The notes under the pieces were generated by a model. It saw only the letters and a list, made by a program, of their open reading frames with translations, did not search any database and was not told the origin of the DNA. Positions 2,883 to 61,110 of a DNA stretch of 64,000 nt are shown piece by piece. The position numbers and the translations under genes were made by a program. Numbering within the stretch: position 1 is the first letter of the stretch; every line of letters begins with the position of its first letter. Source of the DNA: Bolinopsis microptera (Eukaryota; Ctenophora; Tentaculata; Lobata; Bolinopsidae); NCBI RefSeq assembly GCF_026151205.1, contig NC_087072.1:193501-257500 (forward strand), written 5' to 3'.

Positions 2883-3479
2883 AATTCCAACTTTTTCTGT
2901 TCCAGAGTCCTCTGGTTCTTGATCGCATGAATCGTACTCACTGTCAGAGTCGGCATGATCAGGAGCTGAGAGTTTCTTCTCGTGAAAAGGTTCAGAGTCT
3001 GTCTTCTTTTGTATATCTTTTACGGTTTTTGCAGAAATTCGCGTTAAAGTTGATGCCGTGGTGTCAGTAAAATGGCACAGATAAATATATATATTTCATG
3101 ACTGGACTTCTACACAATAAAAGAAAGCGGTTGTGATTAGATCTTCGAAAGTCTTTGCATCGTTTATTTACATCAATTCTGAGAAATTATATCATTAAAG
3201 TAACTACAACAAATACGAATCATATACAATTGAGAATAAATACAAACTAAAAGCAGTGGGAAAATCTGATGAACTGAAATTTAAAAAAGAAACTGAAAGC
3301 CGTTAAAAATGTACTCTTATCTTATCTCTTATCTAAATACTGATAACTGATTCTCGGAAAATCACTTAAAATCACAACAAAAACCTGTAAAATTTATACT
3401 TAAGTAAAAAATGTAATATGCACGTCTCTGGAATAATGGTATAACTAAATAAAATCTACAAAATATACTAAAACTAAAA
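2883..3479. other. LINE leader and spacer to Penelope-like element
   Basis: On the minus strand the ORF1 frame stays open from 2882 back to a TGA near 3093, encoding an acidic Ser/Asp/Glu-rich stretch without a Met. It may be decayed coding sequence or translated leader. From about 3100 to 3479 the DNA is AT-rich with no open frame of note; it should hold the 3' untranslated end of the Penelope-like element. I could not place the boundary between the two elements. Confidence 0.5.
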
Positions 3480-15291: not shown

Positions 15292-17283
15292 TTAGAATTC
15301 AGTGAAATTTTTGTCATTCCATTCAGCACCATACCTGTTTTGGGCATTCATCAATGACTTTTGTAATTTATTCTTAACAGAAGAACAAGAGGAATTAAAA
15401 TTAAATGAGCCAATTTTACAAAACTCATTCCACAGCCACGCTGATTTATAGATGAATTGTTTAGTTGGAGAAGGTGTGATTAACATATTGTCTTTCCTAT
15501 GAGATATGGTGAACAAAGAGAACATTGAAATTGGTACTCTTGTCTTAATTATCTTAAAAAATTCCATTAGGCAACGTAGTCTATATAGGTTCTCTACAGC
15601 TAGTAATTTATGTTTTGCAAATAGAGGTTTGGTAGACTCCTTAACATAAAAATCGCAACCCAAACGTTGGGAGCCGAACGGTCTAACTCTAGCACATGTT
15701 CTGAATTTGTCTACATACCTTTTATGGTCTCCGAATAGAATTCTTATACATTTCTTCTGAGTAATAAATAGTGGTTTTAACTGGATATTAGGAATACCTC
15801 CCCACACAGAAATAGCAAAACCGAGATGTGATTCAAAGAGAGAATGGTAAATTTGTTTATATAGTGATTCTGGTAAGCATTTCTTAATACGGTAGATACG
15901 TCCACAAGCACTGCTTAGTTTTTTGTTAAGAGATTGTATGTGTGGTTTCCAACTTAATTTGTCATCAATAATAACTCCAAGGAATTTAGTTTGACTAACA
16001 CGCTTGATTACCCTGTTATTCATGGATAGGTAATAGCTATCTATATCGGCGTCTAATTCATTATTGTTACGTTTATTTGGAGAGAAGTACATGTAACAGC
16101 ACTTTTTTACATTAATGTGTAGTAGGTTTACTATCATGTAATTATTAACAGCCTGCAGTATTTTGTTAGCCATGTCATATACCTTATCCTTTGAGTCGGC
16201 TGCAACAAATATATTAGTGTCGTCAGCAAATAGAACAAATTTACCTAGACTTGTTATATTACAAATATCATTTATGTACAGTATGAACAGTAGAGGTCCG
16301 AGCACACTCCCTTGGGGGACTCCAAATTCTACAGGTAATTCATCAGATTTTACATCAAGAACGTCCACAAATTGTTTTCTATTAGATAAATAACTAGAGA
16401 TAAGATTTAGAGCATTTCCTCGGATACCATAGTTATTTAATTTTGTTATTAGCTTAGAGTGGTCTAGGGTATCAAAGGCTTTAGAAAGATCTACGAAGAC
16501 ACCTAGTACGTGCTGCTTTTTGCTAGTTAACGATTCAATATGTTCTACAGAATAATTAAGTGCATGACTAGTGGAATGCCCTTTTCTGAAACCAAATTGG
16601 TTTTCATGAATTATTCCCTTAGAGGTTCAGAAACTATACAACCTAGCATATATCAGTTTTTCTAGTATTTTCCCAAAAACAGGTAGTGTCGATACGGGTC
16701 TATAATTTCCTAAAAGCTGTTCATCTTCCTTTTTGTAAATCGGACTAATTCTCCCTGTCTTAAGTTCTTCAGGAAATAGGCCTTCTTGTATGCATCTATT
16801 GAAATACTTCACTAAATACGGTGCAATTACTTGACACGACTTCTTAATTACATGAATAGGTATGTCGCTTGATTTACCATTTTTTAATTCGTTTATGGTC
16901 TCTATCATTTCAGCACTGTCACAGTCTTTAAGATAAATACTGGATGTGATGGATTTCGGGAGGTAGTCAGTAAATGTTGGTAAATCATTTATTCTTAAAT
17001 AGTCATGAGAATACACTTCATTAAGATTAGATGCAATGGAAGCAAAGTACTTGTTGAACTCATTTGCAATTACACGACGATTGGTTACACGCTCATTATC
17101 AATAATAAAGTTAGGTTTCGTCTGACGTCTCTTCTTACCACGTAATTCGTTAATTATCTGCCAAGTTTTCTTGCTGTCACCAATACATTCAGCAATCTTT
17201 CCCCCGTGATACTTATGTTTTGCACAATTAATGAGGTGGTTTAATAACTTCCGGTGTGCTTTAAATTCCTGATGACGCATTAC
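15292..17283 (-). pseudogene. LINE ORF2 remnant, one in-frame stop
   Basis: A 5'-truncated LINE ORF2 of the same family as 55228-58632. It begins near 17283 inside the linker between endonuclease and RT (KKTWQIINELRGKKRR), and shows ISPIYKKEDEQLLGNYRPVS, DLSKAFDTLDH (motif A, near 16500), VPQGSVLGPLLFILYIND (motif B) and FVLFADDTNIF (motif C, near 16230). It ends with TCARVRPFGSQRL, a C-terminal motif shared with the intact element. The frame is open throughout except for one TGA at 16626-16628, where the intact copy has a Phe-like codon (LYSF*TSKG against LYNFFTSKG). The endonuclease and ORF1 are absent, so this is a dead insertion. Confidence 0.85.
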
Positions 17284-26251: not shown

Positions 26252-28640
26252 GATGGATATAGGTAAAAACTAGGCCTAAGAGCCATCAAAACTCAAATAA
26301 CATTACCCAGGTTCATGGAATGAACGAAAATGAACAAAAATTAATATTGTCCTAAAAATGCTCAGAACGGTTTAAAATTGGTCGGAAAGTGTTTATATTG
26401 GTCCTATGACCACTCAAACCAAGTTTGGGAATCACTGCATGTCTAGAACCGATGTTACCTATGTTCCAAAATGTTCCAATTTTGGGACAATAATCCTCCT
26501 GAGAATCCAGATTTTTGGAACATGGACACATCGAAGTATTGGCTGTATTTAAGTGCTGGGAAGCCTCAATTCGGTTTTCTAAGATGGATATAGGTAAAGA
26601 CTAGGCCTAAGAGCCATCAAAACTCAAATAACATTACCCAGGTTCATGGAATGAACGAAAATGAACAAAAATTAATATTGTCCTAAAAATGCTCAAAACG
26701 GTTTAAAATTGGTCGGAAAGTGTTTATATTGGTCCTATGACCACTCAAACCAAGTTTGGGAATCACTGTATGTCTAGAACCGATGTGACCTATGTTCCAA
26801 AATGTTCCAATTTTGGGACAATAATCCTCCTGAGAATCCAGATTTTTGGAACATGGGCACATCGAAGTATTGGCTGTATTTAAGTGCTGGGAAGCCTCAA
26901 TTCGGTTTCTAAGATGGATATAGGTAAAGACTAGGCCTAAGAGCCATCAAAACTCAAATAACATTACCCAGGTTCATGTAATGAACGAAAATGAACAAAA
27001 ATTAATATTGTCCTAAAAATGCTCAGAACGGTTTAAAATTGGTCGGAAAGTGTTTATATTGGTCCTAGGACCACCCAAAGCAAGTTTGGGAATCACTGCA
27101 TGTCTAGAACCGATGTTACCTATGTTCCAAAATGTTCCAATTTTGGGACAATAATCCTTCTGAGAATCCAGATTTTTGGAACATGGGCACATCGAAGTAT
27201 TGGCTGTATTTAAGTGCTGGGAAGCCTCAATTCGGTTTCTAAGATGGATATAGGTAAAAACTAGGCCTAAGAGCCATCAAAACTCAAATAACATTACCCA
27301 GGTTCATGGAATGAACGAAAATGAACAAAAATGAATATTGTCCTAAAAATGCTCAGAACGGTTTAAAATTGGTCGGAAAGTGTTTATATTGGTCCTATGA
27401 CCACTCAAACCAAGTTTGGGAATCACTGCATGTCTAGAACCGATGTGACCTATGTTCCAAAATGTTCCAATTTTGGGACAATAATCCTCCTGAGAATCCA
27501 GATTTTTGGAACATGGGCACATCGAAGTATTGGCTGTATTTAAGTGCTGGGAAGCCTCAAATCGGTTTTCTAAGATGGAAATAGGTAAAAACTAGGCCTA
27601 AGAGCCATCAAAACTCAAATAACATTACCCAGGTTCATGTAATGAACGAAAATGAACAAAAATGAATATTGTCCTAAAAATGCTCAGAACGGTTTAAAAT
27701 TGGTCGGAAAGTGTTTATATTGGTCCTATGACCACTCAAACCAAGTTTGGGAATCACTGCATGTCTAGAACCGATGTGACCTATGTTCCAAAATGTTCCA
27801 ATTTTGGGACAATAATCCTCCTGAGAATCCAGATTTTTGGAACATGGGCACATCGAAGTATTGGCTGTATTTAAGTGCTGGGAAGCCTCAATTCGGTTTT
27901 CTAGGATGGATATAGGTAAAAACTAGGCCTAAGAGCCATCAAAACTCAAATAACATTACCCAGGTTCATGTAATGAACGAAAATGAACAAAAATGAATAT
28001 TGTCCTAAAAATGCTCAGAACGGTTTAAAATTGGTCGGAAAGTGTTTATATTGGTCCTAGGACCACTCAAACCAAGTTTGGGAATCACTGCATGTTACCA
28101 ATGTTCCAAAATGTTCCAATTTTGGGACAATAATCCTCCTGAGAATCCAGATTTTTGGAACATGGGCACATCGAAGTATTGGCTGTATTTAAGTGCTGGG
28201 AAGCCTCAATTCGGTTTTCTAAGATGGATATAGGTAAAAACTAAGCCTAAGAGGCATCAAAACTCAAATAACATTACCCAGGTTCATGGAATGAACGAAA
28301 ATGAACAAAAAATGAATATTGTCCTAAAAATGCTCAGAACGGTTTAAAATTGGTCGGAAAGTTTGGGAATCACTTCATGTCTAGACCCGATGTTACCAAT
28401 GTTGTCACAATAATCCTCCTGAGCATCCAGATTTTTGGAACATGGGGACATCGAAGTGCTGGGAAGCCTCAATTCGGTTTTCTAAGATGGATATAAAAAA
28501 ACTAGGCCTTATAGAGGAGCCATCAAAAGTCGAATAATATTACCCAAGTTTATGGAATGAAGAACGAACATGAAAATTTTCCTTAAAGCACTCAGAATGG
28601 TTAACAAATGGTGGCAAAGAGTCAATATTTTCGTCCAACA
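26252..28640 (+). repeat. Left arm: ~330-bp tandem repeat, about seven units
   Basis: The unit marker GATGGATATAGGTAAA occurs near 26253, 26583, 26913, 27243, 27574 (GATGGAAATAGG), 27905 and 28224, giving a 330-bp period. Units are nearly identical (ATGTTCCAAAATGTTCCAAT, AAGTATTGGCTGTATTTAAG). The last units are shorter and more diverged. No gene; short open frames here are by-products. Confidence 0.9.
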
Positions 28641-28741
28641 GGGTCTTAAAGTTGCATTCAGAATTGTGTACAATTAAACAGAAATTATTTATTGGGCAAA
28701 TATTTTTGTTTTAATAATCCTCCAATATTTTGATATAAATG

Positions 28742-30730
28742 CTTCCCAGCACTTAAATACAGCCAATACTTCGATGTGCCCATGTTCCAAAAATCAGGAT
28801 TCTCAGGAGGATTATTGTCCCAAAATTGGAACATTTTGGAACATAGGTAACATCGGTTCTAGACATGCAGTGATTCCCAAACTTGGTTTGAGTGGTCCTA
28901 GGACCAATATAAACACTTTCCGACCAATTTTAAACCGTTCTGAGCATTTTTAGGACAATATTCATTTTTGTTCATTTTCGTTCATTACATGAACCTGGGT
29001 AATGTTATTTGAGTTTTGATGGCTCTTAGGCCTAGTTTTTACCTATATCCATCTTAGAAAATTCGAATTGAGGCTTCCCAGCACTTAAATACAGCCAATA
29101 CTTCGATGTGCCCACGTTCCAAAAATCTGGATTCTCAGGAGGATTATTGTCCCAAAATTGGAACATTTTGGAACATAGGTAACATCGGTTCTAGACATGC
29201 AGTGATTCCCAAACTTGGTTTGAGTGGTCCCAGGACCAATATAAACACTTTCCGACCAATTTTAAACCGTTCTGAGCATTTTTAGGACAATATTCATTTT
29301 TTGTTCATTTTCGTTCATTCCATGAACCTGGGTAATGTTATTTGAGTTTTGATGCCTCTTAGGCTTAGTTTTTACCTATATCCATCTTAGAAAACCGAAT
29401 TGAGGCTTCCCAGCACTTAAATACAGCCAATACTTCGATGTGCCCATGTTCCAAAAATCTGGATTCTCAGGAGGATTATTGTCCCAAAATTGGAACATTT
29501 TGGAACATAGGTAACATCGGTTCTAGACATGCAGTGATTCCCAAACTTGGTTTGAGTGGTCCCAGGACCAATATAAACACTTTCCGACCAATTTTAAACC
29601 GTTCTGAGCATTTTTAGGACAATATTAATTTTTGTTCATTTTCGTTCATTCCATGAACCTGGGTAATGTTATTTGAGTTTTGATGGCTCTTAGGCCTAGT
29701 TTTTACCTATATCCATCTTAGAAAACCGAATTGAGGCTTCCCAGCACTTAAATACAGCCAATACTTCGATGTGCCCATGTTCCAAAAATCTGGATTCTCA
29801 GGAGGATTATTGTCCCAAAATTGGAACATTTTGGAACATAGGTCACATCGGTTCTAGACATGCAGTGATTCCCAAACTTGGTTTGAGTGGTCATAGGACC
29901 AATATAAACACTTTCCGACCAATTTTAAACCGTTCTGAGCATTTTTAGGACAATATTCATTTTTGTTCATTTTCGTTCATTCCATGAACCTGGGTAATGT
30001 TATTTGAGTTTTGATGGCTCTTAGGCCTAGTCTTTACCTATATCCATCTTAGAAACCGAATTGAGGCTTCCCAGCACTTAAATACAGCCAATACTTCGAT
30101 GTGCCCATGTTCCAAAAATCTGGATTCTCAGGAGGATTATTGTCCCAAAATTGGAACATTTTGGAACATAGGTAACATCGGTTCTAGACATGCAGTGATT
30201 CCCAAACTTGGTTTGAGTGGTCCCAGGACCAATATAAACACTTTCCGACCAATTTTAAACCGTTCTGAGCATTTTTAGGACAATATTCATTTTTGTTCAT
30301 TTTCGTTCATTCCATGAACCTGGGTAATGTTATTTGAGTTTTGATGGCTCTTAGGCCTAGTTTTTACCTATATCCATCTTAGAAAACCGAATTGAGGCTT
30401 CCCAGCACTTAAATACAGCCAATACTTCGATGTGTCCATGTTCCAAAAATCTGGATTCTCAGGAGGATTATTGTCCCAAAATTGGAACATTTTGGAACAT
30501 AGGTAACATCGGTTCTAGACATGCAGTGATTCCCAAACTTGGTTTGAGTGGTCCTAGGACCAATGTTAACACTTTCCGACCCATTTTAAACCATTCGGAG
30601 CACTTTGAGAAGAATGTTCATTTTCGTTCATTTCTGGTCATTCCATGGGTAATTTTATGCGACTTTTGATGGCTCCTAGGCATAGCTTACGGCTATATCC
30701 ATCTTAGAAAACCGAACTGAGCCTTCCGAG
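28742..30730 (-). repeat. Right arm: same ~330-bp unit, opposite orientation
   Basis: The reverse complement of the left-arm unit, marked by ACCTATATCCATCTTAGAAA near 29041, 29373, 29705, 30037 and 30368, about six units. With the left arm it makes an inverted repeat with ~2-kb arms. A transcript through both arms would fold into a very long double strand. Confidence 0.9.
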
Positions 30731-31184
30731 CACTCAAATACGGCCAATACTGCGATGTACCCATGTTCCAAATTTATGGATTCATCTACTGCAAATATCA
30801 GAGATTTTGACCATGTATTCTTCGGCGGCGCGCGCTTCGCGCGCGAAAAGTGGCATGCAACGTATGTCAACTAAAATTGAACAAATTAGATGATTTTAGA
30901 GGATACGCCGGTAAAATCTCTAAAAAAAGTGTGTTTCTACATTCTAGAGCAAAACGCGCAGTTTTGCTAGTCACCGTAGTTAAGTTTTTCTTACTGGGCG
31001 GCGCTCAGCCTGTCATTCCGCCGAATATTTATGAACATAATCGATATTGTCCCACATTCAAACGACAATTTGGCGCCCTCCTAAAATTGCCCCCCCCCCC
31101 CCCCCCCCCTCCGCACAGCGGGGTCCTTCGTTACTAGTTACGCCACTGAATCCAGGTCAAATCAAGACTGAGAATCTTTACCCC

Positions 31185-32991: not shown

Positions 32992-35900
32992 ATGATCATG
33001 CAGTGGGTTGCACTTGTTTTTAGTCTCATTGCCTTAGCGGCATCTGCAAATGATTTTATTGGTAAGTCTCTCCAGTTTTTGAAATATGAACGATTTTTTA
33101 CAGCTGATTTGGAAAAGTTGAAAATCACGTCGATAAATTAGGTGTACTCCAGCAAACAGTTTAGTTTTAGTGTCTTTGAAGTAGTGTCTGAGCACGTGAA
33201 GCAATAGCTTCACGTTGCTAAGCAACTAACGCTGCCCCTCAGTTGCTAAACAACTAACCCCTCAGTTGGAAGCACGTACTCCTGTTTCACGGGTTTCCAA
33301 TCTGTTTCTACGGACGGTTGCAAATCACGAGTTGAAGATGCGGAGGGAAATATTGTACAGGAAGCTAGCGCTAATTCTGACACTGATTTCTGTGTCTCTC
33401 AACTGATCTATGGACAAGCAAAACAAGGTACTATGCTGTTTGATATTATCAAGTTTATTGTGCGTCATTTTTATATATTTTTATTTGACCAAAACCCATA
33501 ATCATGGGTAGAGTGGACCGCTGCCAGTGTCTCTCTTTCCCAAACAAAAGGAAATGATATTAATTTGATTGACCGTTCTCAAATGCAAAATGATACCGAG
33601 AATGAAATCGGTTGCTCGCTTTTCCCATTCATTCACGGCTTACAATCAATCACATGCTGTAAAAATTCCTTTGGGTTGCGTTCGGGTCGATATACTTAGT
33701 TTTTCGGGATAAGGGTGGTACTGGTAGTTAGTGAATTAGCTGAAGTTTATTGAATCTTTATTGCTGAGTACAGCTGCCTTCGGGTAGTTCTTCTTAATCT
33801 ATTACAATTGTAAATTAATGAAAAAAGCGAGCGACCGATTTCATTCTCGGTATCATTTTGCATTTGAGAACGGTCAATCAAATTAATATCATTTCCTTTT
33901 GTTTGGGAAAGAGAGACACTGGCAGCGGTCCACTCTACCCATGATTATGGGTTTTGGTCAAATATCATCTCTTTTTGATTATAATGTCAGGGTACTTTAT
34001 AAAGTCGAAAGATAAACTGATGTCTTCATTAATAAGGAGGAAGTTTCAACGATTTCGAAATTTTTCCTTTAAAACATTTCCTTGTGTTTAAGTAAGCATA
34101 TCGGTCTATCACTGACTGAACATAAAACATTATAATCATTCAAGTTGGCATTAAATTCATATATAATGACATTGAACTGTCGTGCAGAATTTGTTCGAAA
34201 TCACGAATGAGCAAAATTCTCACCGTTCGCACGTGCAAACTTTTAGCGGACGTTGCGTGCGCATCCAATACTGAATCGCCGTAAATTTTTGCATAGCGGT
34301 ATTTTATATATAGTCTGATAAGCGTGCACAGTTTCAAAAGATTTCAAATAGAACTTGGATCACAACGGGACTCCAAAGTTGATAAAAATCGTGAAAACAC
34401 CAATTTTCAGTGATTTTAGCAATTTTTAATCAATTTGTGCGAGTCCCCACGTGTGCAACTTTTTGATTTTTAACTTTAAAACCAGCCTAATGCACAATTT
34501 ATACCTATAGGAAGCAGAACTGAGCTCCACAACCCAAGAGATAGCCCAACACCAGAGAATACTAAATCGCAAAATTGACGTTTTTACAAAATAATTTTTC
34601 AAAAAAGCACTAACTTCAAAGGCAAATATCTTTATGAAGGAGTAAGATAAGAAAACTTTCCGGTAGATTTTCAGAATGCTTGAACAATTATCTAAGTGAA
34701 AATTTCCTCAGATGTTGAAAAAAATTGCTTTTAAATGGTGTTAAATCAATTTTAAAAGTTATTACTTTGTCGAAAATCAAGTTTTAAAAACGGTTAACTT
34801 GATGACGTCATCAAGGGGTGTTTATGACGTCAAATAATTTTTTTATACAATGTAAACTGAAGTGTAAACAATTATTTTCAAGACCTGTGGTCGGAAATGG
34901 CTGTATCTTTTGTACTTTTGAATCTATGGACACTTAAATTTAGGATACAATTGACTAAATTTGACTGTCAAAGCGTCTATCCCTGAATATGTATATATCA
35001 CGACAATCTGTTGTAAAACAGGGGTTCCAGGAAACCCACTTCCCGTCTAGACGCCCTGCAAAGTTTCACATCTCTAACTCAATTTTAACATGGTTTTTAA
35101 GGCACCTGAATATGGCAATTTTCGGTTTTTTACCGAATTTCGTATAACATGCTGGCGCGAATTTTGCGCAAATTTCTTAAAAAACCTCCACATAACTATT
35201 TCTTATTCCTGTCATCTTTGACATTGAATTAGAATGTTTTGAACTTAAATATACCTGCTGAACTACTTTCGATGAGTCTTAATGCCTGAAAAACAATAAA
35301 GGGGTATAATAGTAAAGGGGGTATAATAGTAAAGGGGGTAAATAGTAAAGGGGGTAAATAGTATTGTGAATATAAAAGGCACGGTCATGCTTGCCAGCAT
35401 TGTGATTTGTATAATTTATTGCCTCCAAATCCATTAACCTTAAGGCCTAATCCCGCTGATCTATTCCGATGAAAGTAGTTCCACAGTACCTCAACCGTAA
35501 TACATTTATAATTAAGCTGCGCTCTCTAATTGTTATAATCTTCTGCAGTAAAGCTCTTAAGCTGCGCTCTCTAATTGTTATAATCTTCTGCAGTAAAGCT
35601 CTTAAGCTGCGCTCTCTAATTGTTATAATCTTCTGCAGTAAAGCTCTTAAGCTGCGCTCTCTATTTGTTATAATCTTCTGCAGTAAAGCTATTAAGCTGC
35701 GCTCTCTAATTGTTATAATCTTCTGCAGTAAAGCTCTTAAGCTGCGCTCTCTAATTGTTATAATCTTCTGCAGTAAAGCTCTTAAGCTGCGCTCTCTAAT
35801 TGTTATAATCTTCTGCAGTAAAGCTCTTAAGCTGCGCTCTCTATTTGTTATAATCTTCTGCAGTAAAGCTATTAAGCTGCGCTCTCTAATTGTTATAATC

Positions 35901-38900
35901 TTCTGCAGTAAAGCTCTTAAGCTGCGCTCTCTAATTGTTATAATCTTCTGCAGTAAAGCTCTTAAGCTGCGCTCTCTAATTGTTATAATCTTCTGCAGTA
36001 AAGCTATTAAGCTGCGCTCTCTAATTGTTATCTTCTTCTGCAGTAAAGCTCTTAAGCTGCGCTCTCTAATTGTTATAATCTTCTGCAGTAAAGCTCTTAA
36101 GCTGCGCTCTCTAATTGTTATAATCTTCTGCAGTAAAGCTCTTAAGCTGCGCTCTCTAATTGTTATAATCTTCTGCAGTAAAGCTCTTAAGCTGCGCTCT
36201 CTAATTGTTATCTTCTTCTGCAGTAAAGCTCTTAAGCTGCGCTCTCTAATTGTTATAATCTTCTGCAGTAAAGCTCTTAAGCTGCGCTCTCTAATTGTTA
36301 TAATCTTCTGCAGTAAAGCTCTTAAGCTGCGCTCTCTAATTGTTATAATCTTCTGCAGTAAAGCTCTTAAGCTGCGCTCTCTAATTGTTATCTTCTGCAG
36401 TAAAGCTCTTAAGCTGCGCTCTCTAATTGTTATCTTCTTCTGCAGTAAAGCTCTTAAGCTGCGCTCTCTAATTGTTATCTTCTGCAGTAAAGCTCTTAAG
36501 CTGCGCTCTCTAATTGTTATCTTCTGCAGTAAAGCTCTTAAGCTGCGCTCTCTAATTGTTATCTTCTTCTGCAGTAAAGCTCTTAAGCTGCGCTCTCTAA
36601 TTGTTATAATCTTCTGCAGTAAAGCTCTTAAGCTGCGCTCTCTAATTGTTATAATCTTCTGCAGTAAAGCTCTTAAGCTGCGCTCTCTAATTGTTATAAT
36701 CTTCTGCAGTAAAGCTCTTAAGCTGCGCTCTCTAATTGTTATAATCTTCTGCAGTAAAGCTCTTAAGCTGCGCTCTCTAATTGTTATAATCTTCTGCAGT
36801 AAAGCTCTTAAGCTGCGCTCTCTATTTGTTATAATCTTCTGCAGTAAAGCTATTAAGCTGCGCTCTCTAATTGTTATAATCTTCTGCAGTAAAGCTCTTA
36901 AGCTGCGCTCTCTAATTGTTATAATCTTCTGCAGTAAAGCTCTTAAGCTGCGCTCTCTAATTGTTATAATCTTCTGCAGTAAAGCTCTTAAGCTGCGCTC
37001 TCTATTTGTTATAATCTTCTGCAGTAAAGCTATTAAGCTGCGCTCTCTAATTGTTATAATCTTCTGCAGTAAAGCTCTTAAGCTGCGCTCTCTAATTGTT
37101 ATAATCTTCTGCAGTAAAGCTCTTAAGCTGCGCTCTCTAATTGTTATAATCTTCTGCAGTAAAGCTCTTAAGCTGCGCTCTCTAATTGTTATAATCTTCT
37201 GCAGTAAAGCTCTTAAGCTGCGCTCTCTAATTGTTATCTTCTGCAGTAAAGCTCTTAAGCTGCGCTCTCTAATTGTTATCTTCTTCTGCAGGATCCTTCG
37301 GAAAGTCTAAGAACTACGCTGTGTCCGCTACTTTCAAGATGGTTGAAATGGGAAAGTACTCCACAAGTTACGGTTATTTGGGGATTGCCTTCAATATGAT
37401 GGACTCCAATAACTACGATATTGCTTACGTCAGGTTACAACAATAACAGTAATTAGGTTGCTTAAGTCAGGTTTTTATCGATAATTTGATATTTTCCGAG
37501 CTCTTTTATTGACATGATATCTAAATTCTAATAATTTTAACCAAAACCCAAAATTGGTTGGAGTGAACCGTGGCTCCTTTTTCCAAACAAAAAAGAAACG
37601 ATATCAATTTATAAATTACCGTTCTCAAATGAAAAATGATACCGAGAATACTTATAATATATAATTATATATATATAATACTTATATGTATGATTGTAAT
37701 CATTTGTGGGACTGAGCTTTAACAGATTGAAATGAAATGAAAAATAAAACTGTAAAAGAAAGTTTTGCAACATGATAGTCAGGCTTCTATTAATAGCCAT
37801 TATTCTGACATTAGTTGCTAAAAAGCGTGATCAGACTCTGAAGATCAAATCAGCCCCAAATGGTAGTGATGTTAGTGGAGATAGGAGAGAAGTTAGAAAG
37901 ATTCAGAATAGCATTTCTAAGAGACTTGTGCAAATAAATAACATGAAGGCTGACGCTCTAGCGGAAGAAATAAATAACACTGACGATGCTAGAAAGATGT
38001 TTGAAGCTTCAAGATCTTTAGCTGGAATAAGAAAGTCGGGTAACATAGTGGTCAATGATATCAACAACAACCCTATTGGTACTGATTTAGGGAAAGCAAA
38101 CACAGCGAAATCTTTCTTCGAAAAACAACTAACAGAAGGAGTTGAAGCTGGCTTGCAACCTTTTACCTGCGATCCAAAACCACTTGATAACCCGATCACA
38201 CCAGTTGAAGTTAAACTTGCTGCAAGTAAACTCAAATCAAACCGTGCCAGTGGTCCAGATAATCTCCAGAATGAGCTGATAAAGTACGCCCATCCAATCA
38301 CTTTTGAGAAGTATGCTGAGGCAATTAACGAGTCATTTAGTGGGAACAAATACATAAGTTCGATAGGACAAGGTATTGTGACTCCTCTACAGAAGCCCGG
38401 TAAACCTAAGGGTCCCCTCACAAGCCTTAGACCACTTACACTGTTAAACGGATCGAGGAAGATGCTCACTCAAATTGCCTTAAAACGGGTTGAGAGTAGA
38501 ATTGACAACTACACCATGCCATGGCAGAGTGCTTACAAGAGAGGTAGGAGCTGCTCTGACATTGTGTGGGCTCAGAGAATGCTCATATCTGTTGTAATGA
38601 GGAAGAAATGGACATTTAGCAAAATGGGTATTGATATGAGTAGAGCTTTTGATACCGTGAAAAGGGACACTATCATCAATGTTTTGAAAGATGCTGGTTG
38701 TTCGGAGGACGACATTCGTTTAGTTCAATACCTTCTATCGAATACTCTCCTTAGAGTTCGTGTTAACTCCTCACTGTCGGAAGAGTTTGAAAGTTTACTC
38801 GGAGCCTTTCAAGGTGACAGTTTATCTGGAAAGCTATTCACACTTATTCTTGCAGCAGCCTTACACCACCTCAGAGCTGTATCTGGGAGACCAAACCCAC

Positions 38901-40191
38901 CAGTATCAGAACTAGGTTTTCCAACTGAGTGGGAATATTCAGACGATTGTGACTTTGCTGACGAGGACATCGAGAAACTGAGAATTTTCCTTCCTACAGT
39001 GAAGGAGATTCTCAAAGACTGGAACCTCCAAGTAAATGAAAGTAAAACTGAATTCAGTACCTTCTACCTAGCGACAAAATCTGATAAAGATACAAACGGT
39101 CAGCCATTAGCTAATAACGAACCATGGAGAAGTAACAAGTCACTAGGTTCCTTACTGTGTACTGAGAAGTACATTCAAAGAAGAAGAATCCTAGCTGAGA
39201 TTGCTTTTAAGAACTTTGAAAAAGTTTGGCTGTCTGGTAAGAAAATATCCCTTGAAAGAAAGCTGAGGTTATACGATGCTCAAGTTGTATCTGTATTGAT
39301 TTACAACTCAAATAGTTGGAGTCCTAAGAAAGCAACCATGGAGAAAATGGACACACTCCATCGTAGACACCTCAGGTCCATTTTAAACATCAAATGGCCT
39401 AAAGGTATGATAAGCAACAAAGCATTGTATGAAAGGTGCAAAGTTGAAAAGTTATCCAAGCGTATTGAACACCAGCGGTGGAAAATGTTTGGACACATTC
39501 TCAGGAGTATGGAGAACACCCCAGCCCAAACGGCTCTCTCATTTGCTATTGAATCAGATAATTTATTCATTGGAAGATTGGGGAGACCTAGAATGAACTT
39601 GTTATCGGTTTTAAGAAGTGATTTAAATAGTAGAAGTTTGCAAATGGACAACTTGTATGAATTGAACGAAATTAAAGATATAGCTGCATGCAACAGATGT
39701 TGGGAAAATCTTTTTCAAGGGTACAGTTTACCGCATTAAGGTATTTTTAAGAATCATTTTTGTCGGTAAGATCCTGTTTTATAATAATAATAATAATTCT
39801 GACAATGAAATAGACTTTGTTTCCAGGCCCCACGCAAAGGACCATTGTTGGGAGTTGGGATATGTAGAGGACGGTATGCTCTTTGGGAGAGGGTTTGGAA
39901 CTTGTAATGACAAGGTTATGAAGGAGTTCAACCTGGCCATCAAGATAGAGAATGGAAGAGGTACAGCATTTATTAGCATTTATTAGTATTTATTAGCATT
40001 TATTAGCATTTATTAGCATTTATTAGCATTAATTAGCATTTATTAGCATTTATTATAATACTGTACAGTCTCTGTAACGTGTATACTGTTAACTGTACAG
40101 TCTCGGCACTGTGTAAAGTATCGCCCCTTTGTCAGGTGAGCTGTGTAAAGTTGAATCTAATCCTAATTCTAATTCTAATTCCTATGTTTGA
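32992..40191 (+). CDS. Secreted protein, probably concanavalin/LamG-like fold, five exons
   Basis: Proposed exons: 32992-33061, 33266-33427, 37292-37433, 39827-39960 and, less surely, 40136-40191. Phases agree across all junctions. Exon 1 encodes a clear signal peptide (MIMQWVALVFSLIALAASA). Exon 2 encodes YSCFTGFQSVSTDGCKSRV and DFCVSQLIYG. Exons 3-4 encode YAVSATFKMVE, GYLGIAFNMMDSNNYDIAYV, then RPHAKDHCWELGYVEDG, a layout seen in secreted concanavalin-like beta-sandwich domains (FNxxDxxNYD and xVRPH). Cysteines in exons 2 and 4 could form disulfides. Exon 5 (ELCKVESNPNSNSNSYV then stop) may be a true end or a decayed exon, leaving a ~187-residue protein. Intron 2 holds the 45-bp array and an inverted-repeat element; intron 3 holds a LINE. 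Exons 1-4 are well supported; the fold is my inference. Confidence 0.6.
33482..33964. mobile_element. Element with ~140-bp terminal inverted repeats
   Basis: The left end TATTTGACCAAAACCCATAA and ~140 bp following are repeated in reverse complement at the right end (33825-33964) with very few changes. About 190 bp of spacer continues the family A sequence (GTTGCGTTCGGGTCGATATA). It lies in intron 2 of the secreted-protein gene. It encodes nothing. Copies at 10226 and 37540 appear to be half elements. Confidence 0.75.
33965..35513. other. Intron sequence, no gene
   Basis: Part of intron 2. AT-rich unique DNA with no recognised motif. A small minisatellite of AGTAAAGGGGGTA units lies near 35300-35362. 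Confidence 0.4.
35514..37291 (+). repeat. ~40 copies of a 45-bp unit ending in a 3' splice site
   Basis: The unit is AAGCTGCGCTCTCTAATTGT, TATAATCTTCTGCAG, TAAAGCTCTT. Variants lose or gain 3 or 6 bp only. Each unit has a pyrimidine-rich stretch ending in CTGCAG; the last copy provides the actual acceptor of exon 3 at 37291. The array reads as a 613-codon open frame repeating KLRSLIVIIFCSKAL, but only because 45 is divisible by three and the unit lacks a stop in that frame; I do not consider it a protein gene. Confidence 0.9.
37540..37655 (+). repeat. Diverged family A copy
   Basis: AACCAAAACCCAAAATTGGT ... TTCCAAACAAAAAAGAAACG ... AATGATACCGAGAAT corresponds to the left half of the element at 33482. 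A 23-bp (AT)-rich run follows near 37655-37680. Confidence 0.6.
37811..39739 (+). pseudogene. LINE reverse transcriptase without endonuclease
   Basis: An uninterrupted ~642-codon LINE frame beginning in the linker (KKRDQTLKIKSAPNG). RT motifs: KLKSNRASGPDNLQNELI, TPLQKPGKPKGPLTSLRPLT, motif A MGIDMSRAFDTVKRD (about 285), motif B FQGDSLSGKLFTLIL, motif C WEYSDDCDFAD with the Asp pair (about 390), then WNLQVNESKTEF. The C-terminus has HRRHLRSILNIKWP, RWKMFGHILRSMEN and GRLGRPRMN. The endonuclease is missing through 5' truncation, so it cannot retrotranspose alone. An ATG at 37772 in intron DNA happens to be in frame and adds 13 foreign residues. The clade is not certain. Confidence 0.85.
37811..39795 (+). 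mobile_element. 5'-truncated LINE in intron 3, 9-bp target duplication
   Basis: The insertion is bounded by ATTCTGACA at 37802-37810 and 39796-39804. The 3' end is an (ATA)n-type tail (39781-39795). It lies in the same orientation as the host gene. Confidence 0.8.
39965..40065 (+). repeat. AGCATTTATT minisatellite
   Basis: About nine tandem copies of the 10-bp unit AGCATTTATT in the intron after exon 4 of the secreted-protein gene, directly behind the 5' splice site (GTACAG at 39961). Confidence 0.85.
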
Positions 40192-52262: not shown

Positions 52263-52466
52263 AAAACTTTGCGTTGTCTATAATGCATGCTATAGGACCT
52301 CAAAATAAGATCGAACTCTACAAATTCGATCTATTCAAAGAAAAATAGTATGACAAAACATTTTTATTTTATCTCTACACATTTGTAAATAACTAGAATT
52401 GTGTATTTCTAAATTATTTCAGAATTATAACTATTGTGAACTCAATAAAATAATTATAGCTTTTGT

Positions 52467-52519
52467 ATCCTTGTATCCTTGTATCCTTGTATCCTTGTAT
52501 CCTTGTATCCTTGTATTCT
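52467..52519 (+). repeat. TTGTATCC microsatellite
   Basis: Seven tandem 8-bp units TTGTATCC, the last one altered (TTGTATTC). Confidence 0.9.
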
Positions 52520-53248
52520 TCGTCGGTACAGAGGAAAGAAGATTGACATCAAACATGAGACCCTTCTATCAGAAGTATCGTACAACCTCATCCTTGCCCC
52601 GATGATGGAGTAGATGATGTGTTTTAATACTTTCAACACTACTATATAACAAATAATTTGAGGATGTCCAATATGTCCATGGCTTGCTAAAGTCAACTGC
52701 ATCGGGGGTACTATGATGGTCCAGGGGGTGCTGAAACAGAAGACTGGCACTCTTAACATGTTAAGAAGTTAAGTAGTTGTAGTGAATAATGTTTCTGTTT
52801 GGCAATGTATAACTCCATTCACACCACAATCCACAATTGGACAATTGGACAACCCTGATTAATGTGTAGATAGTGTTGAAAGAATTTTAAACTTAAAACT
52901 TGAACTTCACTTCTGATAACTTTTGGGGCTGCGCTCCAAGAACAGGCTGACATATATATGGCTTATGGATTATATGTAATGTATTCTGATTAAATGATAG
53001 GGCTTGCCAGTCCAACCACCTCATATTTTTCATACTCACTCACTCTCTTGTCCCATGTGTCGTAGTCCGTCAGTCTGTTCAATTTTCCAATCTTTTGAAT
53101 CATTTTGACTAATCCAGTTTACACTTTCATTGTTTTCCACAACAGAACATTTCAAACTGCTTTCTGCTCTTCTTTCTTTTCAGTGAGTGTGCTAGTTGGA
53201 CGTGAAGGTGCCCCCTGGTCTGCCTGGTACCCCCATTGCCTCTTCACC

Positions 53249-55231
53249 ATGATGGAAACCCCCACTGACACTCAAGAAAAGTGTGAGAAACCTCAACCTG
53301 TTGCAGACCAGACTTCATCCACTACGGTTCCCCATCAGGATACACCCACCACTTCCTCAGCTTCAGTCATTGAAAATATTGACGAAATGCTTAGAGATGT
53401 CGATAAACTAATTCATTCAGAAAATCAGGACTCAGAAGAAGACAAAAATGTCAGCAGTCTCCTTAGTTTCTTCTCAAATAGATCTGCTCCCCTCGACACC
53501 TATCTGTTAACCCACGCACAGAACCTACGCTCAGAGGTAGACTTAATCAAGATTAACATTTGCAGTATCCTGAAACTTGAAGTAAACAAGTTTGCGATCA
53601 TTACACCAGCCATGATCAAGAGTTGTTCATCCCTGAACAAACTAACTTTAGCAGAAGGTCTCCTATCCCTGCTAGGTCTTGCTGAAAGTGTTTGTGCTGT
53701 AGTAAGTGGACAGAGATGTGAAAACGAAGTCAAGTCCTCTTCCTACTTGTCAGCTCCCTGCAGCTTGAGCATGCCAATGGTTCACACTACCTCGGATGGT
53801 AGCTCTCTACAAGATTCTCTAGAAGCCATTCAGAAGTCCATCAAGAACCTTAAAGACAACGATAGCCATCTCAGAACTCTCGACTCCATCAACAGCAAGC
53901 TTGCTGAGCTCAAACTTGACATAAACTGTTTTAAAAACAGTAGGTCATCAAATGTTTCCACCCCTGATCTGCCCATGCCTCCTTTTAATATAGGGTCACC
54001 CGCACCATGTGAAATGGACCAAGAACAGCTTCTCCTAGATGCACAGAAGCATGCAAGTGTAGACGACCCTAAGTCCAAGCACATTCTGTCGTATGTCCCA
54101 GAATTTGTAGATGAAAAATTGAACTCTGAGCTTTCAGTTTTCTTAGACCAACAGAAGGAAGCCTTTGATAGTAACTCCGAAAATGGACATGGGGTTGTGA
54201 GCTTTGGCGAACCTTATCAGTACCCGGGGGCTAAAGCTGAAAAACCGACATCAACAGAATTTCCTGAGGTTCTTAATAAGCTTGTCTCCAAGATAAAGGA
54301 AGAATGTCCTAGTTCAACAATCAATCAGTGCTTGATAAATCGGTACACTGATGGGAACAGCTTTCTTCCTAAGCACTCTGATAACGAGCAATCACTGGTC
54401 CATGATAGTTCCATATTTACAGTATCCTTAGGTGGTGATTGCTCTGTAAAATTCACAAAAAAGGACCAGCTTGAAGGAGAGGTTGTAGAGACAATAGAGG
54501 GACGTAGTCTCTATGTCATGAGCAAACAGTCCCAGTTTCTTTGGGACCACCGAATTGATAAAAGCACAGAAAAGAGGGACTTAAGATACAGTATTACCTT
54601 CCGCTACGTAAGCAGGAGCATCAATGCGACCTTGATTGTCGGTGATTCAAACACCCGGTTCCTCAAATTTGGGGCTGGAAAAGGAACATTTGGACACAAG
54701 CTGCCTGGGAAAAGAATCGAATGTTTCACAATAGATCAGTTAGACCCTGTTCTTTGTGTTGGATACAAGAACGTTGTAGTACACTGTGGTATAAATAATA
54801 TCAAGAGGGGAGGGGGTGATGTTAAACATTGGGCTAATGAGCTGACGAAGAAGCTCAAGAATATTTGTGATATGTGTCCATATTCTAAAGTTATTGTCTC
54901 ACCCATCCTTCCAACTAGGTCCTCCTGGCTGAATGACAGAGCCATGGAGTTTAATAGTTTATTATTTGGGTACTGTAATACTAATACTAGAATAGGCACT
55001 TTAGATTTTGATAATTTTGTTGATGAGGAGGGTCTACTGGACAAGCAGTTTTGTAGATACAAGAAGCCGGATGACCCAATCCACCTGGGGTCAAGCGGTA
55101 TCTTTAAACTCTCCCGGGCAATTGCACATAAGATCCTAGGTAGCCCCGTTGATGGGAGGTTGTTCAGTGATGTTACCAAGGCCCAAAAAAGATTTTCCCC
55201 ACGTTCTCGTAGATCCGTAGTTATGTCATGA
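53249..55231 (+). CDS. LINE ORF1 with AlkB-like oxygenase and SGNH hydrolase domains
   Basis: A 660-residue protein from the first ATG (53249). Residues 1-330 are Ser-rich with short coiled-coil stretches (LEAIQKSIKNLKDND). About 335-455 match the AlkB-type Fe(II)/2-oxoglutarate dioxygenase pattern: NRYTDGNSFLPKHSDNE gives His376-x-Asp378, then WDHR His434, then RYSITFR with Arg446 and Arg452. AlkB enzymes remove alkyl groups from nucleic acids. About 460-630 is an SGNH hydrolase: VGDSNTR (Ser467), HCGINNIKRG (about 513), and DPIHLG (Asp609, His612), so the triad is complete. The ORF2 start overlaps the stop in ATGA. The remnant at 15292 belongs to the same family but lacks ORF1. The order of domains is clear; activity is inference. 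The element looks intact and may be mobile. Confidence 0.85.
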   Translation: MMETPTDTQEKCEKPQPVADQTSSTTVPHQDTPTTSSASVIENIDEMLRDVDKLIHSENQDSEEDKNVSSLLSFFSNRSAPLDTYLLTHAQNLRSEVDLIKINICSILKLEVNKFAIITPAMIKSCSSLNKLTLAEGLLSLLGLAESVCAVVSGQRCENEVKSSSYLSAPCSLSMPMVHTTSDGSSLQDSLEAIQKSIKNLKDNDSHLRTLDSINSKLAELKLDINCFKNSRSSNVSTPDLPMPPFNIGSPAPCEMDQEQLLLDAQKHASVDDPKSKHILSYVPEFVDEKLNSELSVFLDQQKEAFDSNSENGHGVVSFGEPYQYPGAKAEKPTSTEFPEVLNKLVSKIKEECPSSTINQCLINRYTDGNSFLPKHSDNEQSLVHDSSIFTVSLGGDCSVKFTKKDQLEGEVVETIEGRSLYVMSKQSQFLWDHRIDKSTEKRDLRYSITFRYVSRSINATLIVGDSNTRFLKFGAGKGTFGHKLPGKRIECFTIDQLDPVLCVGYKNVVVHCGINNIKRGGGDVKHWANELTKKLKNICDMCPYSKVIVSPILPTRSSWLNDRAMEFNSLLFGYCNTNTRIGTLDFDNFVDEEGLLDKQFCRYKKPDDPIHLGSSGIFKLSRAIAHKILGSPVDGRLFSDVTKAQKRFSPRSRRSVVMS

Positions 55232-58200
55232 TAGCCAAACTAATATGCGAAATTTGCTGCTGCTGCAATAGACCTGTGCGTGCTGGACATCCATTCATAA
55301 CTTGTCAGATGTGTGACAAGATAATGCACAAAAAATGCAAAACTGATGATAACATAGTCAAATTTCGAGATGCAACATACTGCAAAATATGCACTGATGC
55401 CAATGATATCGTTCGGTATAACCCTTTCTACCAAGCTCCCCACTTTGCAAACAATGGCCTCATTGATGATGAGCCAGTTAATTATATTGAATCTATCTAC
55501 AATAGCTCAAAGATTCTTGAAAATTGCAAAACATTCTCAATAACAGAGTTGAATGCCACCATCCTACCTAAAAATTCAGCTAAATATTTGTCCAAATTAT
55601 TTCTAAATATTGATGGAAATGCATCAAACTTCGACAACTTTGCAGTTGAATTGTCTAGTATCGACCACAAATTCTCTGTTATCGGCCTTGCAGAAACAAA
55701 CACTAATCCCGAAAATGGAACTCTGTATCAGCTTAACGGATACTCCTCCTGTTACCAATCACGCTACTTTTGCCAAGAGAAAAACCAGTTCAAGGGTAAA
55801 GGGTCAGGAGTGTGTCTTTACCTACACGATTCCCTTAACTTTAACAAAATCACTGACTTATCTCTCTGTAATGAACACATAGAATCACTGTTTGTATCTA
55901 TCACTAGCTTGCAAGATCCAACTGTCGTAGGGGTTATATACCGTCCCCCAAACGCATCACTTGAGATGTTCAACAAAGCGTATGAATGTATTCTCTCAAA
56001 ACTGAATGGCAAAAAAGTATATATTCTTGGTGATTTCAATGTTAACATTTTGAACGACCCATCTCCATCAGAGGACAAATTCCAAGAAATAATATTCAAC
56101 AACGGCTTCATACCAACCATATCAGTACCAACTCACCAAATGCCTGGCTGTTCCAGGACCTGTATTGACAATATCCATACCAATGTCGTAGATCAATCCC
56201 TTATTTCTGGTGTGATATCTGACAAGATCTCCCACCATCACCCTATATTCACTCTTATTGAACTTTCCCCTGACTCTGTGCCAACACCTGATTCATCAGA
56301 CAAAATTACTATACACTACGACTATAGTAATGCTAACTTAGAGAAGCTCTGTCTTGAAATAGAAAACGATATAGATAGGTTCCACCACAGCTGTAACACA
56401 TTTGACTCTTTCGTGCAGTTATTTCAAGAAAAGATAGATTTGTCTTGCAAACTTCTAACTCCTAGAACCACTAAACGTAACAGCATAACCAACCCTTGGA
56501 TCACCCAGGGCCTCATTAACTCCATCGACAAGAAAGCTAGGTTGTATTTCGAATGGAAGAAGACTTGTACATTAAAACTACCTGATGGGGATCCAAACAA
56601 GCACATCTACTACAAGGAATTCGACAAGTTTCTCAAGAGCTCAATAAAGATGGCAAAGGCCATGTGCTATACTCAAAAATTCGAGAAGTACAGCATGAAC
56701 TCAAAAAAGACTTGGGAAATTATAAATGAACTCCGTGGCAAAAATTTGTCTAGATGTAAGGACGATTTTGTCATAGATGGCCAGAGAGTTACTTGCAGAC
56801 GAATAATTGCTAACAAATTCTGTGAATATTTTACATCTCTTGCAAGTAATCTCAATAAAAATGTACTGTCAAACAATAGTATTTCTCTGGAACCAGTAGA
56901 ATCATTTGCTCAGTTTATGTCTAATTCGGTATCTGACTCCATATACCTGGAAGAAACTAATGAAGAAGAAATTATAGAGGTGATCCGAGACTTTCAAAAT
57001 GGTAAGGCGAGTGACATACCTATAGTTGTTGTAAAAAAACCGGCCAAGCTCATTGCTGGTACCTTGGCTAGGCTTTACAACACATGTATACAAAGTGGTA
57101 CATTCCCAAGTATTTTTAAAACTGGTAAAGTTATTCCTATTTACAAGAAAGACAATAAAGAATGCATTGAAAATTATCGGCCTGTATCAATATTACCTTT
57201 ATTTGGAAAGATCTTCGAGAAGGTCATTTATAAACGCCTCTATAATTTCTTCACATCTAAAGGTGTACTAACAGACTCACAGTTTGGATTTAGAAAAGGC
57301 CATTCTACCACCCATGCTCTACACAAATCTATAGACTCCGTTACTAAGTCTCTGGCAAGCAATAAACATGTCCTAGGGATATTCATTGACTTGAGCAAAG
57401 CCTTCGACACCCTTGATCACGATATTCTTTTATGCAAATTAAATTCCTACGGTATTAGGGGCACAGCACTTACCTTACTAAAAAGCTATTTGACTAACAG
57501 AAAGCAGTATGTTATGTATAACGATGTACCATCAGAAACAATGGACGTGAAATTTGGAGTACCGCAAGGGTCAATTCTAGGGCCGTTACTCTTCCTATTG
57601 TATATGAACGATATAGTAAACTGCTTTTCAGACAGTGAGGTGAAATTTGTACTTTATGCTGATGACACTAATATCTTCATATCAGGACCATCTAGAGAAG
57701 CAACATACAAAAAAGCCAACTTAGTACTTAAACATGTCTCGATTTACATGAAATGTAATCTACTTCATATCAACATGTCCAAATGCTGCTACATACATTT
57801 TAAACCTGCCTCTGAATATGATGACACCTGTGCACGGACCAGACCATTTGCTATCCTGCTAGATGAATCTAGATCAATATTCATCAATGGTAAGGTTATT
57901 ACTAAAGTCAAGGATACCAAATTCTTAGGTGTTGTTATAGATAGTAAGCTAAACTGGATTGCCCACATGCACTACATCCGTAAAAAACTGAGATCTATGA
58001 CTGGTGCAATCTGCAGAATTCGGCACTCGATACCTTCTGAACTATATTTGAAAATATATAATGCTCTTTTTGAATCACATCTCAGTTATGGTATAAGTGT
58101 TTGGGGTGTTGTCCTCAAAGAACGGTCCAATGATAGTCTTTTCATCACACAGAAGCACTGTATAAGGATCCTTTTTGGCGACCTTGACTCATATTTAGAT

Positions 58201-58632
58201 AAACAATCAACATGTGCACGTACTAGACCATACGGTATGCAAAAACTAGACCATAAACACTTTGAAAAGGAGCATACAAAACCCATTTTTAATAGATTAA
58301 AAATTCTTACGGCTCAAAACTTGTACAAATATCACTGTATTTTAGAATTCTCTAAGATTATCAAGTACCACTGCCCATACTCCCTTTATGAGGCTATCAA
58401 CATTTCAAACCGTGCAACGAGTCTAATGGTTATTCTCCTAAATAAATCAAACACCTTTTTGTTTAATGCAGCCAAGCTTTGGAACGCTGTTCATAGAAAA
58501 ATTTTAACTTCAAGCAATTGCTTAGAAACGTCCATTAGCTTGATAAAACTGAGAACCAAAGCTCTATTAATACAAGCACAGGCAGCTGACTTAAAAGATA
58601 CTTGGACTCCAAACAATTTCAAATTGCAGTAA
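55228..58632 (+). CDS. LINE ORF2: PHD-like finger, AP endonuclease, reverse transcriptase
   Basis: A 1134-residue polyprotein. Residues 8-60 form a Cys/His finger of PHD type (CEICCCCN, FITCQMCDKIMHKKC, YCKIC). The endonuclease follows, about 125-345: VIGLAETNTNP (metal-binding Glu ~155), GVIYRPPN, ILGDFNVNI (~267), and SHHHPIF with the catalytic His (~335). The linker has KKTWEIINELRGK. The RT, about 620-880, has IPIYKKDNKECIENYRPVS, FIDLSKAFDTLDH (motif A, ~718), VPQGSILGPLLFLLYMND (motif B) and FVLYADDTNIF (motif C, ~810). TCARTRPF appears twice, once in the thumb (~870) and again near 995 (TCARTRPYG). The start codon shares ATGA with the ORF1 stop, suggesting coupled translation. It makes and integrates DNA copies of the element. 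No internal stop or shift. Confidence 0.93.
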   Translation: MIAKLICEICCCCNRPVRAGHPFITCQMCDKIMHKKCKTDDNIVKFRDATYCKICTDANDIVRYNPFYQAPHFANNGLIDDEPVNYIESIYNSSKILENCKTFSITELNATILPKNSAKYLSKLFLNIDGNASNFDNFAVELSSIDHKFSVIGLAETNTNPENGTLYQLNGYSSCYQSRYFCQEKNQFKGKGSGVCLYLHDSLNFNKITDLSLCNEHIESLFVSITSLQDPTVVGVIYRPPNASLEMFNKAYECILSKLNGKKVYILGDFNVNILNDPSPSEDKFQEIIFNNGFIPTISVPTHQMPGCSRTCIDNIHTNVVDQSLISGVISDKISHHHPIFTLIELSPDSVPTPDSSDKITIHYDYSNANLEKLCLEIENDIDRFHHSCNTFDSFVQLFQEKIDLSCKLLTPRTTKRNSITNPWITQGLINSIDKKARLYFEWKKTCTLKLPDGDPNKHIYYKEFDKFLKSSIKMAKAMCYTQKFEKYSMNSKKTWEIINELRGKNLSRCKDDFVIDGQRVTCRRIIANKFCEYFTSLASNLNKNVLSNNSISLEPVESFAQFMSNSVSDSIYLEETNEEEIIEVIRDFQNGKASDIPIVVVKKPAKLIAGTLARLYNTCIQSGTFPSIFKTGKVIPIYKKDNKECIENYRPVSILPLFGKIFEKVIYKRLYNFFTSKGVLTDSQFGFRKGHSTTHALHKSIDSVTKSLASNKHVLGIFIDLSKAFDTLDHDILLCKLNSYGIRGTALTLLKSYLTNRKQYVMYNDVPSETMDVKFGVPQGSILGPLLFLLYMNDIVNCFSDSEVKFVLYADDTNIFISGPSREATYKKANLVLKHVSIYMKCNLLHINMSKCCYIHFKPASEYDDTCARTRPFAILLDESRSIFINGKVITKVKDTKFLGVVIDSKLNWIAHMHYIRKKLRSMTGAICRIRHSIPSELYLKIYNALFESHLSYGISVWGVVLKERSNDSLFITQKHCIRILFGDLDSYLDKQSTCARTRPYGMQKLDHKHFEKEHTKPIFNRLKILTAQNLYKYHCILEFSKIIKYHCPYSLYEAINISNRATSLMVILLNKSNTFLFNAAKLWNAVHRKILTSSNCLETSISLIKLRTKALLIQAQAADLKDTWTPNNFKLQ

Positions 58633-58930
58633 TCAAATCTAATTGCAGCCAGCGGCACACACTTACTATTACTATCATGATTGTACTATAGACAGAAAAT
58701 CTTTCAAATCGATTTTGGGCGCTTTTTAACCATTTGTTGTAATGTTTTTAGATAAGTTAAACATCTAAATTTATAAAAATTTTTATCGGAATGAATTAAT
58801 TGATATTTAATAATTTATTCGGTAGGTTTATCTGATATTGATATTGATTATATTGATATTGATTATATTGATATTGTTATTATTGAACGAAGCTAACTCT
58901 AGACATAGTTAATACTACTTCTTTTAAGAA

Positions 58931-59117
58931 AGGGACTTGGAGTATAAACGACCAAGTTTGCATAAATTTCTATCCAACCAAGAACTCAGGAGGCAAAGGT
59001 GGGTGCGTAAACTTTTGGTCTGCACTCTCCGATCCTGTATCACCCTGGATTCTTCTCGACGTATCTTTGTAAAAGTTATATACCTTCTAGTCAATCTCTT
59101 GCTACTCCAAGTCCCCT
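58931..59117. mobile_element. 187-bp element with ~14-bp inverted ends
   Basis: AGGGACTTGGAGTA (58931-58944) is mirrored by TACTCCAAGTCCCCT (59103-59117). The interior is moderately GC-rich against AT-rich surroundings and encodes nothing convincing. It could be a MITE. AAGA-like flanks are too short to call a target duplication. Confidence 0.55.

Positions 59118-61110
<1,993 letters not shown>

Follow-up and report, generated by a model that had tools for sequence, protein, structure and literature searches.

A LINE with AlkB and SGNH-like domains in ORF1

We analysed 64,000 nucleotides of the ctenophore Bolinopsis microptera genome (NC_087072.1, positions 193,501 to 257,500; the window, in whose numbering all coordinates are given). 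On its forward strand the window carries a long interspersed nuclear element (LINE) that appears to be full-length and CR1/L2-like, the class being called from its layout. Its first open reading frame (ORF1; 53249..55231, +) encodes 660 amino acids with no internal stops, and 0 of 2000 mononucleotide shuffles kept the frame open. ORF1 joins an AlkB-type 2-oxoglutarate- and Fe(II)-dependent (2OG-Fe(II)) oxygenase domain (residues ~280–455; 54086..54613, +) to an SGNH hydrolase-like domain (residues ~458–645; 54620..55183, +). The N-terminal region (residues 1–270; 53249..54058, +) has no assigned domain, its weak RRM-type match to Nab6_mRNP_bdg scoring 16 bits against a cut-off of 30.3.

The AlkB assignment is statistically secure. 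PF13532 matches residues 318–452 with 65.8 bits (cut-off 31.2, E 7.9e-18), and sequence matches in the PDB include ALKBH3 (E 2e-6) and ALKBH8 (E 3.5e-6). The iron ligands His376-Ser-Asp378 and His434, and the 2-oxoglutarate-binding arginines Arg446 and Arg452 (in RYSITFR), stand where an initial annotation, made from the sequence alone, had placed them; the AlkB profile match it anticipated was found, and the contrary outcome of no AlkB similarity was not seen. A single-sequence AlphaFold model of the AlkB-SGNH half was not usable (mean pLDDT 35). When 48 AlkB homologues were supplied, the AlkB part was modeled confidently and the SGNH part poorly (27–67 per ten residues). The predicted AlkB structure adopts the double-stranded β-helix fold of ALKBH proteins, with ALKBH2 and ALKBH3 nearest.

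Profile support for the SGNH domain is weaker, and its assignment rests on motifs, relatives and residue conservation. PF13472 scores 18.7 bits with the whole of ORF1 (E 0.0026) and 21.3 bits with the domain alone (E 0.00041), both below the cut-off of 32.9; the Pfam match expected by the initial annotation thus stays under threshold. Its description of a complete SGNH domain likewise holds in part: Ser467 (in GDSN), Asn516 (in HCGINN, which also supplies His512) and Asp609-Pro-Ile-His612 are all present, whereas the oxyanion Gly of block II falls in a divergent stretch and is not confidently assignable. A viral-contig protein with SGNH motifs matches ORF1 with a BLASTP E of 4e-6, in a single comparison with a protein chosen for scoring in an earlier scan, and the SGNH end of a Penelope-like ORF in the same window matches weakly (E 0.001). 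Matches to PDB chains all had E > 1, and viral-contig scans with ORF1 and ORF2 found no relative.

SGNH domains are known from the type IV (esterase) ORF1 of endonuclease-reverse transcriptase (RT) LINEs of the CR1 and L2 groups, e.g. zebrafish ZfL2-1 (PMC3905857, PMC4120745), and the present element fits this type in that an SGNH-bearing ORF1 precedes an endonuclease-RT ORF2, albeit with a weak endonuclease match. Like type IV proteins, ORF1 possesses the Ser, the Asn, the Asp-x-x-His and a His four residues before the Asn; this His and Ser551 appear by eye to correspond to the transposon-specific His191 and Ser228 of ZfL2-1, as given in the available part of that report (PMC3905857). Unlike type IV proteins, the SGNH domain is here preceded by AlkB; the words AlkB and dioxygenase are absent from the available text of PMC4120745.

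The start codon of ORF2 (55228..58632, +; 1134 aa) overlaps the ORF1 stop codon in an ATGA (55228..55231, +). Of the 20 fetched copies, 17 retain this overlap, whereas L112 and L113 have it shifted and L101 has lost it. It opens with a PHD-like zinc finger (55252..55401, +; phmmer match to the PHF23 PHD, E 0.002; Pfam PHD 13.8 bits, below the cut-off of 24), followed by a weak match to an APE-type endonuclease (16.4 bits; cut-off 24.5) and an RT (126.7 bits) whose PDB matches include the RTs of LINE-1, R2 and group II introns. In one L2 subgroup, too, ORF2 has been reported to start, probably, with a PHD finger (PMC4120745, in part). The element is bounded by a 5' untranslated region (UTR; 52618..53248, +), with homology beginning at 52609–52637 in 15/20 copies, and by a 3' UTR and 3' end (58633..59212, +), with homology ceasing at 59212–59217 in 12/20; the other copies are truncated, diverged or clipped by the fetched stretch. 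One extra AATTGTTGTTTTCTTGA-like unit follows the 3' end in nine of ten copies read (it is absent in L107 and in the window copy), indicating that the element ends in a short repeat, not poly(A). A repeat at 58835–58886 was rejected as the 3' tail, since the copies place the end at 59212. Traits of long terminal repeat (LTR) elements were not found: the Pfam matches of ORF1 and ORF2 include no integrase, and no long terminal direct repeat is among the 20 largest of the 31 repeat families shown. Exact words of 10–20 bases gave no convincing target-site duplication for the window copy. Across 53249–58632 the CpG observed/expected ratio is 0.32–0.53, whereas the window as a whole has 0.72; in this uncontrolled comparison the deficit is of the kind expected from CpG methylation. 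Just upstream of the element, TTGTATCC is repeated seven times at 52463–52520, which may represent the 3' tail of a different, minus-strand LINE.

Conservation, selection and exchange of ORF1

ORF1 was searched against the genome of origin (264,652,675 bases, 232 contigs). Among 67 matches scored of 963 candidates, the window copy and partial matches included, 59 are stop-free; by identity to the window they fall at about 93–100%, 72–90% and 49–58%. The prediction that other copies would keep the AlkB-SGNH ORF1 in frame is thereby borne out, and the opposite outcome, a domain broken or absent in all of them, was not seen. Several copies are 97–99% alike, and the family was therefore recently active. 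We compared 25 ORF1 sequences: that of the window, those within 20 stretches spanning whole elements, and four from the most distant group that were taken as ORF1 pieces; as the 24 further sequences were picked among better matches and have no internal stops, their stop-freeness is partly selected. Each HxD residue of the AlkB domain is conserved in 24/24, the distal His and both arginines in 25/25, and in the SGNH-like domain Ser467, His512, Gly514, Asn516, Asp609 and His612 in 25/25 each, with Ser551 in 24/25. An uninterrupted ORF2 is retained by eight of these 20 fetched elements.

Comparisons between subfamilies show purifying selection on the AlkB domain. Nei-Gojobori dN/dS is 0.15 for window–L115, 0.10 for window–L108, 0.21 for L108–L112, 0.12 for L112–L115, and 0.07 for L108–L115, the last with a dS of 2.0, near saturation. 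The largest upper bootstrap limit is 0.41, three pairs having lost 31–98 of 500 replicates to saturation. The same pairs give 0.10–0.15 for the SGNH-like domain and 0.14–0.20 for the N-terminal region; comparisons with the most distant group are mostly saturated at synonymous sites and little informative. These ratios reject a passenger AlkB domain. The initial annotation had taken intact frames to imply selection: the selection it proposed is supported by the between-subfamily ratios, whereas intact frames by themselves would mark merely a young copy. A recent chance fusion of a host ALKBH gene into a single young element, without function, would agree with the 97–99% likeness of several copies. 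We regard this as very improbable and already contradicted: AlkB persists in subfamilies whose ORF1 identity falls to ~50%, other LINE lineages have it too, and dN/dS is far below 1.

ORF1 and ORF2 do not always share a history. L105 and L106 are 97–100% identical to L103 through the 5' UTR and ORF1 and 65–67% identical through ORF2, with a clean switch where ORF1 meets ORF2. Between the window and L112, identity is 91–96% in ORF2 and 89–92% in SGNH, but only 71–76% in AlkB. In another lineage, the RT stretches L151 and L141 share 98.9% DNA identity and the AlkB regions upstream of them (L146 and L127) share 71%, the L146–L151 pairing bridging DNA outside the stretches read. The simplest reading is that recombination swaps ORF1, or parts of it, among LINEs; reticulate ORF1 evolution has already been reported for CR1 and L2 (PMC4120745, in part).

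AlkB domains in other transposons

A PF13532 search of the same genome returned at least 151 matches (150 scored of 587 candidates), of which about 25 were examined. Two of the top three (L121 and L122) resemble host ALKBH genes by eye; the third, L123, may be a host gene or a transposon, and its 296-aa AlkB ORF is followed after ~700 bases by a 259-aa ORF whose SGNH match falls below threshold. Other LINEs share the order AlkB then SGNH. In L127, a 646-aa ORF of this arrangement is followed by an endonuclease-RT ORF, and in L134 a PHD-AlkB-SGNH protein precedes an ORF2 that shares 39% identity with the window ORF2 across 285 residues. In L140 the AlkB ORF ends in a weak SGNH match (E 0.0078), and L137 has an AlkB ORF with no SGNH match, followed by an endonuclease-RT ORF. 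Five further AlkB ORFs (L144–L148) have LINE-type sequence ~3 kb downstream, across an unread stretch: an RT in four cases and, by eye, an endonuclease-RT linker in L152. The domains extend beyond LINEs. In L125, SGNH then AlkB occur in one ORF that runs on into Helitron_like_N and a PIF1 helicase; L139 shows the same order as far as it was followed. The AlkB ORFs of L125, L135 and L139 hold long Ala/Pro-rich repeats, and AlkB frames of 3226–3388 aa exist elsewhere in the genome. The AlkB-SGNH arrangement is thus not confined to a single odd element, as which the initial annotation took it, but repeats in the genome and includes a Helitron. An SGNH-like domain is found with AlkB in all five lineages whose flanks were read (the window family, L127, L134, L140 and the Helitron); all these SGNH matches lie below the Pfam cut-offs (17.2–32.6 bits against 32.9 for PF13472, 18.3 against 23.6 for PF00657) and rest on E-values and motifs.

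Across an alignment of 11 transposon AlkB sequences, the HxD, the distal His and both arginines are retained in 11/11, at identities of 17–38% outside the two closest pairs; a different alignment, in which the viral-contig row L088 was mis-set, was discarded. Such retention argues against the AlkB fold having been kept as a nucleic-acid- or protein-binding module without catalysis. Transposon accessory domains can lose catalysis, and within the window a Penelope-like 842-aa ORF (354–2882) ends in an SGNH-like domain that by eye lacks the Asp-x-x-His; for AlkB we nonetheless consider a purely binding role improbable, the ORF1 domain being apparently catalytically competent judging by its residues.

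In the smaller tree, all 11 transposon sequences fall on one side (support 96/98), and a topology that joins L140 to these could not be rejected (p 0.38). A larger tree of 17 transposon, three host-like and 15 chosen bacterial or viral sequences unites 15 transposon sequences, from LINEs and Helitron alike, on one side (97/99), with the L137/L140 lineage outside it on a very long branch. The ORF1 AlkB clusters with the AlkB domains of other transposons and apart from the host-like ALKBH ORFs, which again speaks against the chance fusion of a host gene. For transfer of AlkB from LINE to Helitron or the reverse the trees give no direction, and long branches meet at this point.

Proposed function and relation to known systems

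ORF1 proteins bind the RNA of their element, and AlkB enzymes remove alkyl groups from the bases of single-stranded nucleic acids. Taken together, these properties favour a role in which methyl groups or damage adducts are taken off the nucleic acid of the element itself. We therefore propose, with a probability of roughly one half, that this LINE has added to the known esterase of ORF1 an AlkB domain that demethylates the element's own nucleic acid; activity, substrate and benefit are what we infer here. ORF1 protein would coat the element's own single-stranded nucleic acid, and its AlkB domain would oxidatively strip methyl or other alkyl groups from bases of the RNA in the particle, and perhaps of the cDNA, such that host marks or damage would no longer block translation or reverse transcription. 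More broadly, the presence of AlkB-SGNH across families of jumping genes suggests that they rid their own genetic material of chemical marks or damage.

Several observations weigh against this proposal. A Helitron has no RNA genome, and the substrate therefore cannot be the LINE RNA particle alone; a purely RNA-genome explanation would be too narrow, and the Helitron case argues for a substrate common to both element types, e.g. mRNA, single-stranded DNA or a DNA mark. Columns near-invariant in bacterial AlkB differ by eye in ORF1, with Lys375 for Trp and Pro for Ser in YxYSG. The likeness to ALKBH2/3 is itself biased, as the alignment behind the model drew on bacterial and viral AlkB of that type.

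This modeling bias also counts against a related possibility, that the domain serves to repair alkylation damage such as m1A and m3C in the single-stranded nucleic acid of the element. Damage repair would accord with the predicted ALKBH3/ALKBH2-type fold and with structural matches that include AlkB domains from phages, RNA viruses and giant viruses (12–26% identity), in which, on structure alone, an AlkB fold likewise sits within a protein of a mobile replicon. Repair of alkylation damage is the role usually proposed for the AlkB domains that plant RNA viruses carry, and LINEs and Helitrons both pass through single-stranded stages. No requirement for an AlkB domain is known, however, for LINEs and Helitrons in general, and we regard damage repair as possible without favouring it.

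A different substrate is envisaged if AlkB-SGNH is a counter-silencing module that erases a host mark repressing transposons of any class, such as m6A on transcripts or 6mA in DNA. The joint occurrence of AlkB and SGNH-like domains in LINEs and a Helitron is consistent with this, as are near-identical ORF2s bearing ORF1s with different AlkB domains. A precedent exists in fungi, where TET/JBP dioxygenases are common to transposons of 11 lineages, Helitrons included, and are proposed to remove silencing marks (PMC12730594, in part). We consider a counter-silencing role somewhat doubtful. A tentative extension is that AlkB and SGNH form a portable counter-defence cassette of ctenophore Class I and Class II transposons, swapped by recombination among LINEs, reversed in order in the Helitron, and erasing a host recognition mark. 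The fungal case resembles ours in that a 2-oxoglutarate dioxygenase has passed among unrelated transposon lineages including Helitrons; it differs in concerning the TET/JBP family acting on 5-methylcytosine, DNA transposons and fungi, with AlkB unmentioned in the available main text (PMC12730594).

The other near precedent is found in Phalaenopsis orchids, where Ty3/Gypsy elements encode AlkB in an additional ORF with m6A RNA demethylation activity in vitro (PMC9289625). As here, a retrotransposon has gained an AlkB domain; as far as the available text describes it, the orchid case concerns a plant LTR element with AlkB akin to m6A demethylases, unlike a LINE ORF1 fusion with SGNH and a predicted ALKBH2/3-like fold. 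This was the single report of an AlkB-encoding transposon among the literature matches listed for AlkB or dioxygenase domains and transposons, which included no LINE ORF1 or Helitron AlkB, most subscription papers, bioRxiv and Repbase being outside their scope; PMC11294593 and PMC8857917, in their available parts, mention AlkB only as host repair genes. An SGNH hydrolase linked to a Helitron has a parallel in the texim genes, which lie near fish Helitrons and are kin to CR1 esterases (PMC4021074, in part). Texim is a separate gene and AlkB is unmentioned in the available text, unlike L125, where SGNH and AlkB lie inside a long Helitron ORF.

Should the domain prove active, animal transposons in large number would encode a nucleic-acid demethylase of their own. 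The idea of a host-transposon arms race over epitranscriptomic marks or methylation could then be put to a direct test, for which a single purified protein and a single point mutant would suffice. That AlkB and SGNH occur together in LINEs and in a Helitron provides, in addition, a clue to the esterase of ORF1 proteins, as yet unexplained.

The window holds further repeats and frames. The Penelope-like element (354–6521, −) is recognised by eye and by a GIY-YIG match, its ORF at 3480–6521 ending in GIY-YIG. A second-LINE fragment (15427–17277, −) has an ORF2 49% identical to that of the main element. Two arrays of 331-bp period, with ~6 copies each, occupy 26252–28362 and 28741–30783. A 613-aa open frame (35469–37310, +) lies inside a 45-bp repeat array of ~40 copies, with an RT + DUF6451 ORF downstream (37772–39739). 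Beyond the LINE, an open frame at 59961–60389 (+) resembles by eye an exon of a Rho/Rac small GTPase and is probably part of a host gene.
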